64,000 nt of DNA from Gemmatimonadaceae bacterium (GTDB lineage: Bacteria; Gemmatimonadota; Gemmatimonadetes; Gemmatimonadales; Gemmatimonadaceae). Below, piece by piece: positions 52,233 to 63,394 of the stretch (position 1 is its first letter; every line of letters begins with the position of its first letter). The DNA is taken from contig JAUSJA010000026.1 in NCBI GenBank assembly GCA_030647905.1, positions 1-64,000 on the forward strand. Direction: 5' to 3'. The position numbers and the translations under genes were made by a program. The notes beneath the pieces were generated by a model. The model saw nothing but the letters and a program-made list of their open reading frames with translations, had not been told where the DNA came from and searched no databases.

Positions 52233-52284
52233 AGCTGAAAGGACAGTCCACACATAATCGCATCGAGAGAGGGCGGAGGTGCCG

Positions 52285-52377
52285 CTACGGGCCTACGCTG
52301 TATCCCATGGCACGGTACCCGCGCTGGCGCTTCTCGAACATCCTGGCGAGGACAGGCACTGCGCGATCCACGTAGTA
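52285..52377 (-). pseudogene. C-terminal fragment of a primase-helicase (TOTE-type) gene
   Basis: Minus-strand translation gives YVDRAVPVLARMFEKRQRG and YRAMGYSVGP before a stop at 52285. The intact protein encoded at 60938-63394 ends YVDRAIPVLVRMFEKRLRG and YRAIGYQMDL, so this is a paralogous tail. The remainder of the gene is missing and a heptamer array starts exactly at its upstream edge. Confidence 0.85.
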
Positions 52378-55772: not shown

Positions 55773-56810
55773 CTAATAGTATGGAAATCTCGTGAAGATC
55801 TCTCGCACTTTCTTTGCACTGGATGTGACCAGTTTCTCGAGTTGCGGGCTTATCAGGACCGATGTGCGCGATGAACGCGGATGGTGGACAGCGGCGATCA
55901 TCGCCTTGTTTCCCCAGTGAACCGCGGCGCCGTACCCTGCCTTTGCACCTTCTTGTCGGTCAGCCCAGGCCACAATCGCTGCAACTCCAACATTTCTGTA
56001 GACGTATCCGACAGTCTCGAGGGCCAGAGCGCTCCTGAATCGATCTGACGTCTTGTCGGTGTATTCGTAGGCCAGGGCAGGATGCAGCAGTATCCATTGC
56101 GATCGCGGGGGCTCGTTATAGCCTCTTCTCTCGTGTCTCTGATAAAGCGCACTGTTGACCGCAAGCTCCCATGGGAACTGGCTTGGCGTTTTGTTAAAGT
56201 AGTTTTCCCAGCGTTTATCCAGCGCCGCCACGTACTTGACGAGCGCGTCACGTTGGGGCGTCAGCAGTTGTCCATTGAGCCGCCGTACCAGGGTTGCATC
56301 GGTGATGATCTCGACAGCTTCCTGGAATGCAGCGGAGCAGGCATCGACTGCCGCCTGGCAGCGTACGTCAACGCTCGAGTCCAGCGGGATCGCATATGGT
56401 GTGTCGAGAAACAGGCCTCCCCGAGCGATCTCGTACTGCCACTGCGCCGGTTCGGATTTGGCCAGAGCGTCCGCCCTTACGACTTCGATCCAGGCGTCTG
56501 TCCGTTCTACAAGGTTCTGCAGGTTGGCGCTGTTGCCGGTCTTTGCAGCCGAGTTGCGGATTGCAGTCAGCATCTCGAGCGCCCCTCGGCCGTCTGGAGC
56601 CTGAAGCCAGGTAGCGAACTGCATGCATAGCGCGACAGTGCAACTGCTTCCCCCGAGACAATCGACGACGCGAAGCTCGTGCAGCTTCATCAAGGCGTCT
56701 TCGGAGGTGCGAGGCTGGTCGTCTCTCGCTCCGCATTGATCCTGTGCTGACAGACGCGGGGCAAATATCAGAACAGAGAGAAGCAAGCCGATGCGAAGCA
56801 GTATTCTCAT
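55773..56810 (-). CDS. Secreted protein of unknown family (last gene of the five-gene operon)
   Basis: The 345-residue protein has a clear signal peptide (ILLRIGLLLSVLIFAPRLSA). A largely helical mature part with an even number of Cys follows (VDCLGGSSCTVALC, RCQAAVDAC), suggesting disulfides outside the cytoplasm. No enzyme motif is seen. Its ATG overlaps the stop of the serine-hydrolase gene (ATGA), so the two products are made together. I recognise no family. Confidence 0.75.
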   Translation of the reverse strand: MRILLRIGLLLSVLIFAPRLSAQDQCGARDDQPRTSEDALMKLHELRVVDCLGGSSCTVALCMQFATWLQAPDGRGALEMLTAIRNSAAKTGNSANLQNLVERTDAWIEVVRADALAKSEPAQWQYEIARGGLFLDTPYAIPLDSSVDVRCQAAVDACSAAFQEAVEIITDATLVRRLNGQLLTPQRDALVKYVAALDKRWENYFNKTPSQFPWELAVNSALYQRHERRGYNEPPRSQWILLHPALAYEYTDKTSDRFRSALALETVGYVYRNVGVAAIVAWADRQEGAKAGYGAAVHWGNKAMIAAVHHPRSSRTSVLISPQLEKLVTSSAKKVREIFTRFPYY

Positions 56811-57877
56811 GCTTCCCCCGCCATTTCGAGGAGCGCGTTCAACTCATCCCAAAGATTCTTCAGCGCCGGCCAGCTTTCGCCGGAGCTTGGAGAAATCGCT
56901 GCCAGATCCTTCTTGATCCGTGCGGCTGCTTCCGGGCTCAAACCGTCAAACTGAGGAAACGATTCGATTGCTGCTTTCTCCTCAGTCTTCGTGATCGTCG
57001 TTTCACCAGCCAGCGCGCGGAATAGCGGTATGTGCGCCTGTGGGTTGATGAGATAGTGGCAGACGTCGTGGACGTTTACCTTGTGCACATGCGTGACTTC
57101 GCAGTACTGGTATCGTCGCGCGGCCACTGTTGCATCGTCGGGCCAGCTTTGTGGCCGAAACATTCGCGGTATCGTGAACGGGTCGAGGAAATGCCGGATG
57201 TTCACGTAGCGGAGGCAATCCCTTCCTTCCTGTCCTGCCTTGCCCGGCTGCACCGCAGATTTGTAGACGTCGACCACTTTCGTCTCGAGCACCCGGCTGG
57301 TGTTGGCGATCATCGTGATCGACTGAGCCTGTTCGATGCGCGGGTCGAAAGCGCTGATGTCGGTTCCCGGCACGACCCCCGTAGCGAGCATGTCGAGCGC
57401 ATCGTGCGCCACCGCCGTCCCCAGAGAATGCCCGATGACTGACCAGAGAGACTGCTGCTCTTTCTTGTACTGTTTGCTTATGCCGTCGACGATTTGTTTT
57501 GCGACGTGAACTTTGACGCGCTCGCGAACCGTTGCGGACAGACGGTAGAGAAGCACGTCGGCTGCATGCGTCCAGATGAAGTTCCCATCCTTCTTGCCGG
57601 CGGTCCTGAGCCATCCGACGAGCTGTGCCGCCTGGCTTGCGCCGACGTCCATCGCCAGAGGTTGTATTTCCCTGGCGTCTGTCTGCCACCGCGAGACGAT
57701 CTCCTGAAAGATCGGATCGTAGTGGACCATCTCGATCTCGAACTGGGTGTCGAAGGGGATGGCGGCGAGCTTGGGGTATTTCTTGTACGCGGCGACCAGG
57801 ACCTTTTTGACTTCCTTGGCCCAGGTGTCGCCGTCGTAGACGCCCATTCCGTGAACCAGAAACAGCTTGTGGCGCAT
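56807..57877 (-). CDS. Alpha/beta-hydrolase, lipase-like
   Basis: The 356-residue protein has no signal peptide and begins with KLFLVHGMGVYDGDTW, the oxyanion-hole strand of the alpha/beta hydrolase fold. The nucleophile elbow is WSVIGHSLGTAVAHDAL. Later segments ending in THVHKVNVHDVCHYL could supply the catalytic His. It is probably cytoplasmic and acts on an ester or lipid. GGAGG lies 5 nt upstream of the ATG. It is the fourth gene of the operon and overlaps the secreted-protein gene by 4 nt. Confidence 0.8.
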   Translation of the reverse strand: MRHKLFLVHGMGVYDGDTWAKEVKKVLVAAYKKYPKLAAIPFDTQFEIEMVHYDPIFQEIVSRWQTDAREIQPLAMDVGASQAAQLVGWLRTAGKKDGNFIWTHAADVLLYRLSATVRERVKVHVAKQIVDGISKQYKKEQQSLWSVIGHSLGTAVAHDALDMLATGVVPGTDISAFDPRIEQAQSITMIANTSRVLETKVVDVYKSAVQPGKAGQEGRDCLRYVNIRHFLDPFTIPRMFRPQSWPDDATVAARRYQYCEVTHVHKVNVHDVCHYLINPQAHIPLFRALAGETTITKTEEKAAIESFPQFDGLSPEAAARIKKDLAAISPSSGESWPALKNLWDELNALLEMAGEA

Positions 57878-57941
57878 GGTGCCTCCGCGCAGCAGGTGCG
57901 GCGACGGTGAGACCTCTCTGGGGCATCGTTACCGTTGTGGC

Positions 57942-58862
57942 CTAAACGACAGTGCAATGAAATCGTTTTTCTACGCCATCGAGTTTCGCCGTAACCCGTG
58001 CCGTGCCCGGAGCGACGGCATGCAGGGTTCCATCGGGCAGCACGGAAAGTGTTGCTGGATTGTCCGTCGCCCATGTAATTCCGTGCAACGGCACGGTGGC
58101 GCCGGTTGCATCGGTCGCCGTGACTGTAAGAAGCTGATAGAGGCCCACTGAAAGGCTGGGAACCGGATCGGGGTCTATCTGAATACTCTTCGCCACAGCG
58201 AGCTGGTTCCTGAAATCCTTCACCGCACTCCGAAGCACGTCCTCTCCCACGACATTGAGAAGAGCAAGTCCCAGGAGACTCACCTTCACTTCGTCACTCA
58301 GATTCTGGAGGCCGCGAATGTCGTTGATGGTTCTTGCAAGCGACTGCTGTTGGTCCTGCGGCAGGTTCTGCATAAGCGCGAGACATAAGGCCGGCAACGC
58401 AACAGCGGCCTTGGTAAAGGAGACGTCACCCATGAGCTTTGATACGGCTGTCGAGCGAGCGCCCCCGCGGTGGCGATCCACTTCGCGGTCGGCCGCGGTC
58501 AGAGCGAGCTGGAGAAAGCTGGCCGGCCCCACGCTGACATCCTGATTGCCTACCCGGACCGTGAAGAGCGAACTTCGGAACACAGCCATGGCTCCGAATC
58601 CGGCGGTGACCAATTGCGTCCAGCGTATGGCTTCCGGCGAGGCGCCGCTGCCGAGCCCGAATTTCCAGTCGAATGCCCGTATCAGGCTCAGGACAAAAGC
58701 GGCCGCAGCGGCGTTGAGAGCGATATAGATCCATCCCGGAGTTGTATTTACGGCACTCACCGGGGCGTCACGATAGCGCGAGACGAGCTCCCCTGCCCCG
58801 ATGAGTCCTCCAAACGCCGCCACGAGGCCGAAGTCGATCAGAAGCTGCCAGTTGATGCCCAT
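57942..58862 (-). CDS. Membrane protein with C-terminal Ig-like (BIG2) domain
   Basis: The 306-residue protein has two to three hydrophobic segments in its first third (LIDFGLVAAFGGLIGAGELV, IYIALNAAAAAFVLSLIRAF). A helical middle follows, and the C-terminal domain of about 85 residues has the bacterial Ig-like pattern: LTVTATDATGATVPLHGITW, then LPDGTLHAVAPGTARVTAKLDG. BIG2 domains usually mediate extracellular contacts, so a sensor or tether role is plausible. The start lies 3 nt after the preceding gene's stop. Confidence 0.75.
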   Translation of the reverse strand: MGINWQLLIDFGLVAAFGGLIGAGELVSRYRDAPVSAVNTTPGWIYIALNAAAAAFVLSLIRAFDWKFGLGSGASPEAIRWTQLVTAGFGAMAVFRSSLFTVRVGNQDVSVGPASFLQLALTAADREVDRHRGGARSTAVSKLMGDVSFTKAAVALPALCLALMQNLPQDQQQSLARTINDIRGLQNLSDEVKVSLLGLALLNVVGEDVLRSAVKDFRNQLAVAKSIQIDPDPVPSLSVGLYQLLTVTATDATGATVPLHGITWATDNPATLSVLPDGTLHAVAPGTARVTAKLDGVEKRFHCTVV

Positions 58863-58865
58863 CGC

Positions 58866-59186
58866 TCAACGGGTGAATTGATAGTCCGACAGTAGCCGCT
58901 GCCCTTCCGGGGAAAGATCAATGACCTCCCCTTTAGGCGACGTAGAGATATGTATGAGCCCGGCATCGAGCATGTTGTCGATGAGCACCGCAAACTCCCG
59001 GACATCTATCTCTTCCTCGACTGCCAGGTCGCGGGCCAGGTGCGGTCCGTCAGACAGCCGCCTGAGGAATTTCGTGGGAATGTAGCCTCGGCCTTCCGAC
59101 TGGTTCTGCCGCTGAAGTCTCGCGGATTCTTTCAGGAATGTCGAGAACCCTGTTGGGTCCCCGCCGCTGCCGCCCGAACTTTGCAT
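58866..59186 (-). CDS. Small winged-helix-like protein
   Basis: The 106-residue soluble protein has a Gly/Ser-rich start and a helical C-terminal domain: GYIPTKFLRRLSDGP, DVREFAVLIDNMLDAGLI, then a short hairpin (ISTSPKGEVIDLSPEGQRLL). The helix-helix-wing order ending in SPEGxxLL is typical of winged-helix DNA-binding or protein-interaction folds. It could be a regulator or adaptor of the operon. No family is certain. GAGG lies about 9 nt upstream. Confidence 0.65.
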   Translation of the reverse strand: MQSSGGSGGDPTGFSTFLKESARLQRQNQSEGRGYIPTKFLRRLSDGPHLARDLAVEEEIDVREFAVLIDNMLDAGLIHISTSPKGEVIDLSPEGQRLLSDYQFTR

Positions 59187-59202
59187 CTGCTTTACCTCGC
59201 GA

Positions 59203-59478
59203 TTACGGCTGGCGTTGTGGTCTGGTGAGCCCGGGGAGGCTCAAATAGGAGATATGGTCGGGTCCCACTGCCAGTACGCGGTGACCGACCTCAGTCTCGG
59301 CCTGCATCCATTCCACCACCGCGAGCGCAGCACGCACTGCATCCGCCCTCGACTTGAGGGCAAGGCGATCTCGAATCGCGTCGAGCGCCACGGCTTCGTG
59401 GACGGGCAGGTCAAGCTGAATCCGAACTTTGGATTTCGCGTTCCCAACCCTGGATGCTACCACTGATTTTTTACTCAT
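59203..59478 (-). CDS. Ribbon-helix-helix (CopG-like) protein, operon leader
   Basis: The 91-residue protein begins with a basic tail and then KVRIQLDLPVHEAVALDAIR and KSRADAVRAALAVVEWM, the strand-helix-helix pattern of ribbon-helix-helix repressors. The C-terminal extension (VGHRVLAVGPDHISYLSLPG) may bind a partner. It is first in the operon, and a palindrome overlaps its promoter, so it likely represses its own transcription. No ribosome binding site is seen and the mRNA could be leaderless. Confidence 0.75.
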   Translation of the reverse strand: MSKKSVVASRVGNAKSKVRIQLDLPVHEAVALDAIRDRLALKSRADAVRAALAVVEWMQAETEVGHRVLAVGPDHISYLSLPGLTRPQRQP

Positions 59479-59485
59479 GTCGTTG

Positions 59486-59512
59486 AATATATCATACTCA
59501 GGCGCGTGAGTA
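59486..59512 (-). promoter_or_regulatory. Promoter and palindromic operator of the five-gene operon
   Basis: On the minus strand, TATGAT (59491-59496) is a good -10 element, with a second TATATT directly after it. TACTCA, six bases, TGAGTA (59495-59512) is a perfect inverted repeat that overlaps the -10 region. The expected transcription start is within about 5 nt of the ATG at 59478. Confidence 0.6.
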
Positions 59513-59573: not shown

Positions 59574-59725
59574 CTAAGGCCTTACTTTCGGGCGGCCTCC
59601 CTTTGCCCCGTTGGCCCGCGCTGCGCGAGCTTTCGCCGGACTTCGCGACGCGCCTCCGCTACGCCCCAGTAGCCGCATCCAACGACTGCTGCCCACTATG
59701 GCTTCAAGCACACCTGCAACGTAAC
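59574..59725 (-). pseudogene. DUF2442 gene, C-terminal fragment
   Basis: Minus-strand translation ends VLEAIVGSSRWMRLLGRSGG and KARAARANGAKGGRPKVRP. This matches the end of DUF2442 proteins such as the intact one at 63391-63855 (GVFGTRRWMAEVGKKGG, NGRRGGRPRKP). The N-terminal domain is missing; the sequence upstream is the start of the nucleotidyltransferase gene on the other strand. Confidence 0.75.
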
Positions 59726-59737
59726 CAAATTGGTTAC
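59721..59737. promoter_or_regulatory. 17-bp perfect palindrome before the nucleotidyltransferase start
   Basis: GTAACCAA, a central A, TTGGTTAC is a perfect inverted repeat with 8-bp arms that ends directly at the ATG at 59738. It could be an operator covering the start codon, or a deletion junction. Confidence 0.5.
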
Positions 59738-60094
59738 ATGCCAACCCCCAACATAGTGAAGCCATCTGATATCTACGGATCGGTGGCGTCTGGGAGCCAG
59801 AGGCCGGCAAGCGACATCGATCTCGTAGTAGTTGGTCGGATCACGTTGACCAAGTTGTTGCCCCGATTGCGACGCCTTCAACGCCAGCTCGGCCGCGAAA
59901 TAAATCCCACGATCTATACGCCCGAAGAACTAAGGTCCAAGTATTCGCACCGCGAATATTTCGTTCGCCGTGTTATGGAACGACCAAAGATCATGTTACT
60001 GGGGACGGAAAATGACCTTGCGGAGCTGGTTGGTCAAAGAGGTCTACTTGATAGCAACCACGCTGCGAGACAAGGTCCGAGCGTGGCTGGCTGA
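59738..60094 (+). CDS. Nucleotidyltransferase (MNT-type), probably N-terminally truncated
   Basis: The 118-residue protein has the minimal nucleotidyltransferase signature: YGSVASGSQRPASDIDLVVVG, that is GSxxxG plus the catalytic Asp pair. REINPTIYTPEELRSK and MERPKIMLLGTENDL follow, as in MNT proteins that carry an N-terminal winged helix. That N-terminal domain is missing here, and no HEPN partner gene is adjacent. It may be a solitary antitoxin-like enzyme or a relic. The start is directly after the palindrome and no ribosome binding site is seen. Confidence 0.65.
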   Translation: MPTPNIVKPSDIYGSVASGSQRPASDIDLVVVGRITLTKLLPRLRRLQRQLGREINPTIYTPEELRSKYSHREYFVRRVMERPKIMLLGTENDLAELVGQRGLLDSNHAARQGPSVAG

Positions 60095-60884: not shown

Positions 60885-60937
60885 CGTCACCCGAATTGTT
60901 TTACTCGCGGCGCGCGAAGCAGCCGCGCGTGCGAACG

Positions 60938-63394
60938 CTACAGATCCATCTGGTACCCGATAGCACGGTATCCGCGCAGCCGCTTCTCGAACATCCGCAC
61001 CAGCACCGGAATCGCCCGATCCACGTAGTCGTAGACATGCACCTCCCGCTTCCCGGCATATGCCCGGTGGAGTCGTCCGGCATATTGCACCAACGTTCCT
61101 CTCCACGCGAAGGGCATGGCGAGGAAGAGCGAATCGAGCCGTGCGTCGTCGAATCCTTCGCCAAGATAGCGGCCGGTTGCGAGCACCAGCCGTTCTTCGT
61201 CCGGTGGAATATCCGCCAACTGGCGCATGACTTCCCGTCGCACCTTCGTACCAGTGCCCCCGTGCATGACTACCAGATGCCGCGTGAATGGCCGAAGCCG
61301 GTTGGCCAGATACTCCAGGTGATCGCGTCGCTCTGTGAGGACAAGTGGCGAGCGCCCCACTTCGAGAGCACACAGGATATCGTCGAACAGCAGATCGTTG
61401 CGTGCCTCGGATGCGCCGAGAGCGGCGTACAGCTCCTGGATGCTCTGCTCGGTGAGGCCGGCGGCGAACGGTGTGTCACGAACGATCAGACGATGTGACA
61501 GTCGTCCGCGCAAAGCCGCCCCGGTGCCGATGACGTGTCGCACCGGCCCGAGCTGCATGTGCACGATGGGGTGCAATCCATCGCGCCGCGTTGGCGTAGC
61601 GGTCAACCCAAGGATATAGCGTGCCCATACGTGAGAGAGCACGCGCTCAATGGAGACCGCCGCGACGTGATGGCACTCGTCGACGATCACTGTTCCGTAC
61701 GATGCCACCAGATCGTCGACGACTCCATTCCGCACCAGGCTCTGGACCGTGGCGACGTCGATCGCGCCGGTGACATGTCGCTTTCCCGACGTGATCTGCC
61801 CGATGTCGCGACTCTGGAGCCCGGTGAAGGCAGCAATGCGCGAGACCCACTGATCGACTAGCGGTCTGCGATGAACCAGCACGAGCGCATTCCGCCCGCG
61901 CCGCGCGAGTAATGCGATGGCAATGACGGTTTTCCCCGAACCCGGCGGTGCCACCAGAACGCCGGTGTCGGTCAAAGCGAGAGTCTCGACGGCTTGCGCC
62001 TGTTCTGCGCTCAACGTGCCGGTGAAGCGCACATCGGCTGCGGCGCCATCAGTGCGCCGGTCTTCGACGACCAGCGCCACGCCATAACTCGCTAGCAATG
62101 CCTGCAAATCGTCCAGGCAACCGCGGGGAAGTGAGATATGCGCGGGGAGTTCCTCGGCGCAGCTGACAATCCGTGGTGTGTCGTGGGTTGAGAGGCGCAG
62201 TCGCTGCTTCTGGTAGAATTCGGGGTTCTGGAACGCCGCCAGTTGCTTGATCTGCGTGATGAGTGACGAGGGTAGCCCAACCAGGGGAACGAAGAGTCGC
62301 TGGGCGATCACTGCGGCGACGCATTCGGGGACGGGATCCGTGAGGCGACGCGATTGCGACTCCATCGGCGATGGAGCGAGTTCCCATGGTTGATCCTCCG
62401 GCTGTGTGTCCGTCTCGCGGACGGCCCGTACGCCGAGGATGCGTCCGCTTTTCTCCGCCTCTCGGGCGAGGAGCTCGAGCGCGGCAGCCGTATGTCGCTC
62501 AACTGACGCGAGATATTCCCATTGATCGGCCTGCGGTTCCCACCGATCGTTGAGGAAGAGTGTGTTGCCCTGTTCGGCTGCGCTGCGTTGCAACGGCAGC
62601 GCGATCAGGTTTCCGAAGCCGCCTTTGGGTAGGGTGTCCTGATTCGGGAAGAGCCGGTCGTACGACGTGAGCCGGAGCTGGTGCCGGCGCACCATCGTCT
62701 CGGTAATCAGAAAGCAGCCCACGGTGCGCGCGGTGCGAGCGGGCACCGGACTGGAGAAAAAAAACCACACATGCGCACCCCTCCCGGAGCGCGACCGCTC
62801 GACTGACGGCTCAAGACCGAAAGTCCGACACGTCTCCGCAAAGGCCGCTACATCATCGCGCCAGCCGTCGTCATCGAAGTCGGCCGCGAGGAACCAGCAC
62901 GTGTCGTCCGTCAGCAGCGGGTATACGCCGATGGTGTGCCGGCCGCGCAGGTGATCTTCAATCACGCGATCCGTGACAGGGAGAAACTCACGATTCAGAG
63001 CGTCTCCGCCCCGGAGCAGTGGCTTCTCGCGAACGCCCCGGAACCATTCGTTGGCGCACGCCGGGGCATAGCCCGACCGATTGAGTTTCGGGTTGTGCCA
63101 GAACTTCGGATAGACGTCTTCGCGGCCACGAAAGAGCGTGCGAAACCGGGAGATTTTCTCTGGAACGCTCAGTCGGGATGATGTCCCCGGCGGCGACGGT
63201 GCTGGTACTGAAGGACGCACCCCCAGCGCGACGGCCTGCCGTTCACGCAGATCCAGCAGGTGCGCTCGAGCTTCGGCTAACTCGTGGTCCAGCCGTGCTA
63301 CACGCGCCTCCTGTTCAGCGAGCGCCGATTCGATACCGGGCGGGTCGTCCTCAGAATTCATATCCATCGGGTGGACTCGAACTCTGAGGCTCAA
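60938..63394 (-). CDS. AEP primase-SF2 helicase protein of TOTE conflict-system type
   Basis: The protein of about 818 residues combines three parts. A coiled coil covers residues 20-60. The archaeo-eukaryotic primase domain has FLAADFDDDGW with the catalytic Asp cluster (172-176) and SRSGRGAHVWFFF with His208, plus LFPNQDTLPKGGFGNLIALP. The SF2 helicase has Walker A PPGSGKT with Lys488, DECH at 572-575, GLTATPTRRDG and ATGRYLGEGFDDARLD. This order is known from TOTE systems proposed to counter invaders. The first start is a TTG overlapping the DUF2442 stop; ATGs at 63367 and 63361 are alternatives. Confidence 0.9.
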   Translation of the reverse strand: MSLRVRVHPMDMNSEDDPPGIESALAEQEARVARLDHELAEARAHLLDLRERQAVALGVRPSVPAPSPPGTSSRLSVPEKISRFRTLFRGREDVYPKFWHNPKLNRSGYAPACANEWFRGVREKPLLRGGDALNREFLPVTDRVIEDHLRGRHTIGVYPLLTDDTCWFLAADFDDDGWRDDVAAFAETCRTFGLEPSVERSRSGRGAHVWFFFSSPVPARTARTVGCFLITETMVRRHQLRLTSYDRLFPNQDTLPKGGFGNLIALPLQRSAAEQGNTLFLNDRWEPQADQWEYLASVERHTAAALELLAREAEKSGRILGVRAVRETDTQPEDQPWELAPSPMESQSRRLTDPVPECVAAVIAQRLFVPLVGLPSSLITQIKQLAAFQNPEFYQKQRLRLSTHDTPRIVSCAEELPAHISLPRGCLDDLQALLASYGVALVVEDRRTDGAAADVRFTGTLSAEQAQAVETLALTDTGVLVAPPGSGKTVIAIALLARRGRNALVLVHRRPLVDQWVSRIAAFTGLQSRDIGQITSGKRHVTGAIDVATVQSLVRNGVVDDLVASYGTVIVDECHHVAAVSIERVLSHVWARYILGLTATPTRRDGLHPIVHMQLGPVRHVIGTGAALRGRLSHRLIVRDTPFAAGLTEQSIQELYAALGASEARNDLLFDDILCALEVGRSPLVLTERRDHLEYLANRLRPFTRHLVVMHGGTGTKVRREVMRQLADIPPDEERLVLATGRYLGEGFDDARLDSLFLAMPFAWRGTLVQYAGRLHRAYAGKREVHVYDYVDRAIPVLVRMFEKRLRGYRAIGYQMDL

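Follow-up and report, generated by a model that had tools for sequence, protein, structure and literature searches.

The locus analysed here raises the question of whether five adjacent genes of a Gemmatimonadaceae bacterium form a single system. The window, a stretch of 64,000 nucleotides, is part of a 596-kb contig in a 3.1 Mb genome (98.6% complete). A preliminary description had proposed a five-gene operon of unrecognised type, led by a ribbon-helix-helix (RHH) gene and accessory, possibly defensive, in character.

All five open reading frames (ORFs) are on the minus strand. The first encodes an RHH-like DNA-binding protein of 91 aa (59203-59478), recognised from its sequence pattern, the second a predicted winged-helix (WH) protein of 106 aa (58866-59186), assigned from homologues in another Gemmatimonadota genome, G283, and in Citreicoccus (locus L042), and the third a membrane protein of 306 aa with a C-terminal Big_2 domain (57942-58862), identified from Pfam and homologues. 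These three genes are referred to here as module A. Module B consists of the gene for a lipase-like, predicted cytosolic alpha/beta-hydrolase of 356 aa (56807-57877), defined by columns that are invariant in its homologues, and the gene for a predicted secreted partner of 345 aa with a signal peptide (55773-56810), defined by its leader and by leave-one-out profiles. The intergenic gaps in gene order are 16, 3, 64 and -4 nt, and both order and spacing are as first described. Because all five ORFs have homologues in other genomes, we consider them to be true genes and not chance ORFs.

When the five proteins were searched against Pfam, Big_2 was the sole domain above the cut-off, and PADLOC, PHROGs and NCBIfam returned nothing further of meaning for any of the five. 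We regard as spurious the XopAP and blaGES matches from NCBIfam and the Cas matches from PADLOC. The designation as an unrecognised type was borne out, four of the five genes having no convincing model in Pfam, NCBIfam, PADLOC or PHROGs, and no paper on this gene arrangement was found in the open library.

Genomic setting of the five genes

The GC content is 57-61% over the five genes versus 68-69% in the adjacent kinase gene, and the RHH protein, the membrane domain and both module B proteins were without a match in eight same-genus genomes, which make up the whole congener sample and vary in completeness. The gene at 60938-63394 encodes a TOTE conflict-system primase (PF22548, E 1.9e-91) joined to a helicase, confirming the TOTE-type neighbour recognised earlier. 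Because of the low local GC, the absence from the eight sampled congeners and the TOTE gene nearby, the five genes look horizontally acquired. The suggestion of an accessory, possibly defensive module survives in part: the low GC and the congeners that lack the genes favour the accessory character, but PADLOC gave no meaningful defence match to the five window genes or to the hydrolase homologues, and the support for defence consists of the neighbouring TOTE gene and the low-GC accessory surroundings.

Carriage by a plasmid or phage was considered and rejected, as tblastn searches of plasmids (with the hydrolase, secreted protein, membrane domain and RHH protein) and of phages (with the hydrolase) found no homologue, and viral contigs scanned with the alignments of the membrane, hydrolase and RHH families yielded no match. 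No tRNA is present in the window. A 94-nt direct repeat (74%) is located at 52283-52376 and 60936-61029; the latter copy forms the 3' end of the TOTE gene, and the former is probably what is left of the same end of another TOTE gene. On the plus strand, between the RHH gene and a cyclotransferase-like gene, there is a nucleotidyltransferase (NTP_transf_2) ORF (59603-60094), which may belong to a nucleotidyltransferase pair that has degraded.

Distribution of the two modules

With the hydrolase as a single query, homologues were found in six others of the 298 Gemmatimonadota genomes searched. A hydrolase profile matched 15 of the 298 (14 and the window's own genome), several of these matches being marginal, and gave one marginal match only among 193 Myxococcota genomes. 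The module B neighbourhoods read were those in G112, G185, G211, G079, G202, G128, G143, G184, G294, G243 and G241. The G211 and G243 loci end at a contig edge and the downstream gene is out of reach, and the marginal match in G241 is a different protein, an 882-aa membrane hydrolase. A secreted-type gene lies downstream of the hydrolase gene in all nine Gemmatimonadota loci with a readable downstream gene, the window included, and at each of the nine the hydrolase stop and the partner start overlap, by 4 to 31 nt.

The relatedness of these partners was examined by leaving out one locus at a time and searching every ORF in it with a profile made from the other loci. Exactly the downstream gene was recovered in seven of the nine loci, namely the window and six other genomes (E 1e-11 to 4e-58, 37 to 190 bits, in small databases; the six others alone range from 1e-11 to 1e-55). 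The partners in G184 and G294 form a second secreted family, 40% identical to each other, and hhalign found no significant match between the two secreted families. The window's secreted protein has a single N-terminal hydrophobic leader, and none of six members of its family was matched by Pfam; on sequence grounds, the partner is a new family. A two-gene pair recurs across Gemmatimonadota that is named by no library searched here.

Other genes were seen beside the pair in two genomes. In G112, the gene before it (L028:4313-6028) encodes a membrane-spanning hydrolase of 571 aa with weak similarity to the one in the window, and what looks like an antitoxin/PIN-like gene pair is close by (L028:8305-9008). 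In the complete genome G128, the gene directly before the pair encodes a 133-aa membrane protein without a Pfam match (L033:7499-7900).

Module A is distributed differently. Across the 298 Gemmatimonadota genomes, the membrane domain (residues 1-221) was found in G283 alone (51% identity), which belongs to the same class and to another family. In G283, RHH, WH and membrane/Big_2 genes follow one another in identical order, and this is the sole other genome with the trio. The two RHH proteins are 57% identical over 68 residues, and both carry the C-terminal motif VGPD-(H/Q)-(I/V)-S. A scan of GTDB genomes for the membrane domain, using narrow patterns that undercount its carriers, recovered a Gemmatimonadetes contig with the G283 match and the myxobacterium Citreicoccus inhibens, in which the membrane gene comes after a WH homologue, and both the RHH gene and the Big_2 tail are absent from the locus (L042). 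A membrane-domain profile matched 10 of 195 Myxococcota genomes, one marginally, and in seven Myxococcota genomes of 12-14 Mb neither an RHH nor a WH gene lies beside the membrane gene. In G272, the gene for a 131-aa membrane protein follows that for an RHH relative. In the Myxococcota genome G410, the gene after the membrane gene encodes a 211-aa histidine phosphatase-like protein without a Pfam match (L053:6495-7130).

The two modules were not seen together again. The stretch fetched from G283 contains no module B homologue, module A profiles found no RHH or WH homologue in six module B loci (L028, L029, L031-L033 and L083), and elsewhere in the 298-genome sample the genomes with the hydrolase-secreted pair are not those with the RHH-WH-membrane trio. 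All five genes together were not found in any other genome examined. Co-occurrence of at least three of the genes in a distant genome, which the preliminary description had named as support for a system, was found once, for the trio in G283, but the set that recurs repeatedly comprises two genes only. Because the modules occur separately, the five-gene system was rejected as a conserved unit, and from these comparisons we conclude that the locus is two joined, separately inherited modules. A single defence or stress system of five genes, to which the common strand, the short gaps, the TOTE neighbour and the lack of a promoter or terminator between the modules would lend themselves, is also highly unlikely as an account of this locus, given that the full set was found nowhere else, that the modules recur separately and that PADLOC gave no match. 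What had been a plausible five-gene system is thus corrected to two modules, and the novelty, judged from sequence, is real at the level of the families.

Regulation and function

In the membrane protein, three hydrophobic helices at the N-terminus and a conserved helical domain (motifs GELVSRYRDAP ... FRSSLFTVRVGxQDV ... MQNLP) are followed by the Big_2 domain (residues 225-304, 26.3 bits versus a Pfam gathering cut-off of 22.8), which upholds the Ig-like domain proposed earlier. Pfam did not match the N-terminal domain, and its distribution defines a new family common to Gemmatimonadota and Myxococcota. By the positive-inside rule, the helical domain would face the cytoplasm. WH homologues adjoin the membrane gene in G283 and Citreicoccus, and in searches confined to a single locus, leave-one-out WH profiles gave E values of 7e-4 to 7e-11. 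The winged-helix assignment draws on the L042 homologue, which approaches HTH_45 below the cut-off (E 2e-4, 21.7 versus 25.5 bits), and on weak MarR-like PDB profile matches. The RHH gene does lead the set and has the expected sequence pattern, but no RHH family model (MetJ/Arc type; Pfam) matched it at E up to 5.

A candidate operator, the palindrome TACTCA-N6-TGAGTA on the minus strand (59495-59512), sits immediately upstream of the RHH gene and overlaps a -10-like TATGAT (59491-59496). A strict sigma-70 scan of the window sequence found no promoter, and by itself the window's palindrome count did not reach significance (P 0.15). In G283, the putative promoter TTGACA-N18-TAGAAT is overlapped by the palindrome ACAGGAGT-N7-ACTCCTGT, which CTCCTGTACAGGAG adjoins. 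The half-site core GAGT/ACTC is common to the two palindromes, and because these half-sites sit at the same place in both promoters, the comparison suggests that module A is autoregulated by the RHH protein at its own promoter. No promoter, terminator or unusually stable structure was found in the 64-nt gap between the modules, which makes read-through from module A into module B plausible.

In an alignment of seven hydrolase homologues, H9, G10, G12, H150-S151, G153-T154, D232 and H270 are invariant. These include an HGxG near the N-terminus and the serine of GHSLGT (S151), so the earlier identification of a GHSLGT hydrolase stands. The invariant residues fit an alpha/beta-hydrolase with a Ser-Asp-His triad, likely S151/D232/H270. 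The protein has no hydrophobic leader. The commonest weak match among the homologues is DUF676, which is below threshold in five of seven members. The window hydrolase itself falls under the Pfam gathering cut-offs for DUF676 (13.5 versus 20.3 bits) and Lipase_3 (15.1 versus 22 bits), and it weakly matches lipase PDB profiles, at E of about 0.01-0.04. In both module B genes, nonsynonymous divergence is well under synonymous: dN is 0.26 versus a dS of 1.2 for the hydrolase, and 0.42 versus 2.6, near saturation, for the secreted protein. AlphaFold single-sequence models (mean pLDDT 45 and 40) were too poor for use.

The best reading, which we hold with modest confidence, is that an autoregulated membrane module and a hydrolase-secreted pair, the latter probably of conflict or envelope type, together make up an accessory composite. 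In mechanistic terms, the RHH-like repressor would probably shut its own promoter via the palindrome overlapping the -10 box, and module A as a whole probably serves as a small regulatory unit linked to the membrane; its promoter would here drive both modules, by co-transcription across the 64-nt gap. The hydrolase would be a lipase/DUF676-type serine hydrolase acting on an envelope lipid or ester, a lipid being the substrate that we infer, and it or its product would target the envelope of its own cell or of a neighbour, with the secreted partner checking or completing its action from the periplasm. As a whole, this explanation, with modules joined in a lineage-specific manner, module A self-regulated and module B a self-limiting envelope hydrolase, is tentative, its likelihood falling a little short of even. 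In its favour we count the pairing at nine of nine loci, the separate occurrence of A and B, the G283 trio, the shared half-sites, the invariant S151, D232, H270 and HGxG, the low dN relative to dS and the accessory character. Counted against it are that the trio is in one other genome only, that the window palindrome is not statistically striking and that the predicted compartments of hydrolase and partner differ.

The same pair might instead serve envelope maintenance, with both proteins acting in a single pathway of lipid or ester turnover and module A adjacent by chance, transcribed apart or incidentally. Such a role would suit a pair that occurs without contractile systems, has a conserved secreted partner and shows no toxin or defence markers; however, with profile matches in 15 of 298 genomes, some of them marginal, the pair is rare and patchily distributed, and absence from the sampled congeners fits an accessory rather than a housekeeping role. 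We regard it as possible but unlikely. Distinctly less probable is that pair B represents a new class of envelope-acting toxin or antagonist, or an abortive one, that works without contractile injection and has here come under a membrane-sensing, RHH-autoregulated module.

Comparison with known systems

Small operons autoregulated by RHH proteins include those under type II antitoxin or CopG-type regulation. Module A resembles them in that an RHH-like gene comes first with a palindrome over its own promoter, but a WH protein and a membrane protein follow, not a toxin enzyme. The C-terminal domain of that membrane protein is shared with Big_2 (PF02368) proteins, whereas here Big_2 is joined to an unnamed three-helix membrane domain, and the tail is missing in the Myxococcota locus L042. 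The module B enzyme resembles the DUF676 and Lipase_3 serine esterases (PF05057, PF01764) in the nucleophile-elbow region and predicted fold class; it misses both Pfam cut-offs, and membership of DUF676 by itself implies no secreted partner gene.

The closest anatomy is that of the type VI secretion system (T6SS) Tle/Tli pairs (Tle1-Tle5), in which a cytosolic lipase is encoded in tandem with a secreted immunity protein (PMC9860674). Module B likewise has a cytosolic GxSxG-type alpha/beta-hydrolase and a tandem partner with a signal peptide, of the two proteins the partner evolves more quickly, and the pair is patchily distributed. If it were a T6SS effector pair, the hydrolase would be injected into rivals and the secreted protein would guard the producer's periplasm. 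Four of 11 carriers do have T6SS genes, but on contigs other than that of pair B, and both TssC (PF05943) and the VgrG/spike (Phage_base_V, PF04717) are absent in the other seven, which include the window's genome (G000) and G128 (one contig, 100% complete). Moreover, Tle family models matched neither the hydrolase nor its homologues, and the partner matches no known family. Because seven of the 11 carriers lack TssC and a VgrG-type spike, pair B was not filed as Tle/Tli, and we consider delivery by a T6SS very unlikely; with TssC and Phage_base_V as probes, the case for an effector of any other contractile injection system was weak too. By analogy, pair B may nevertheless work in a Tle/Tli-like antagonistic way. 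If the secreted partner restrains the hydrolase, the two would form a lipase/immunity-like set in cells that lack a T6SS, a prediction that is directly testable.
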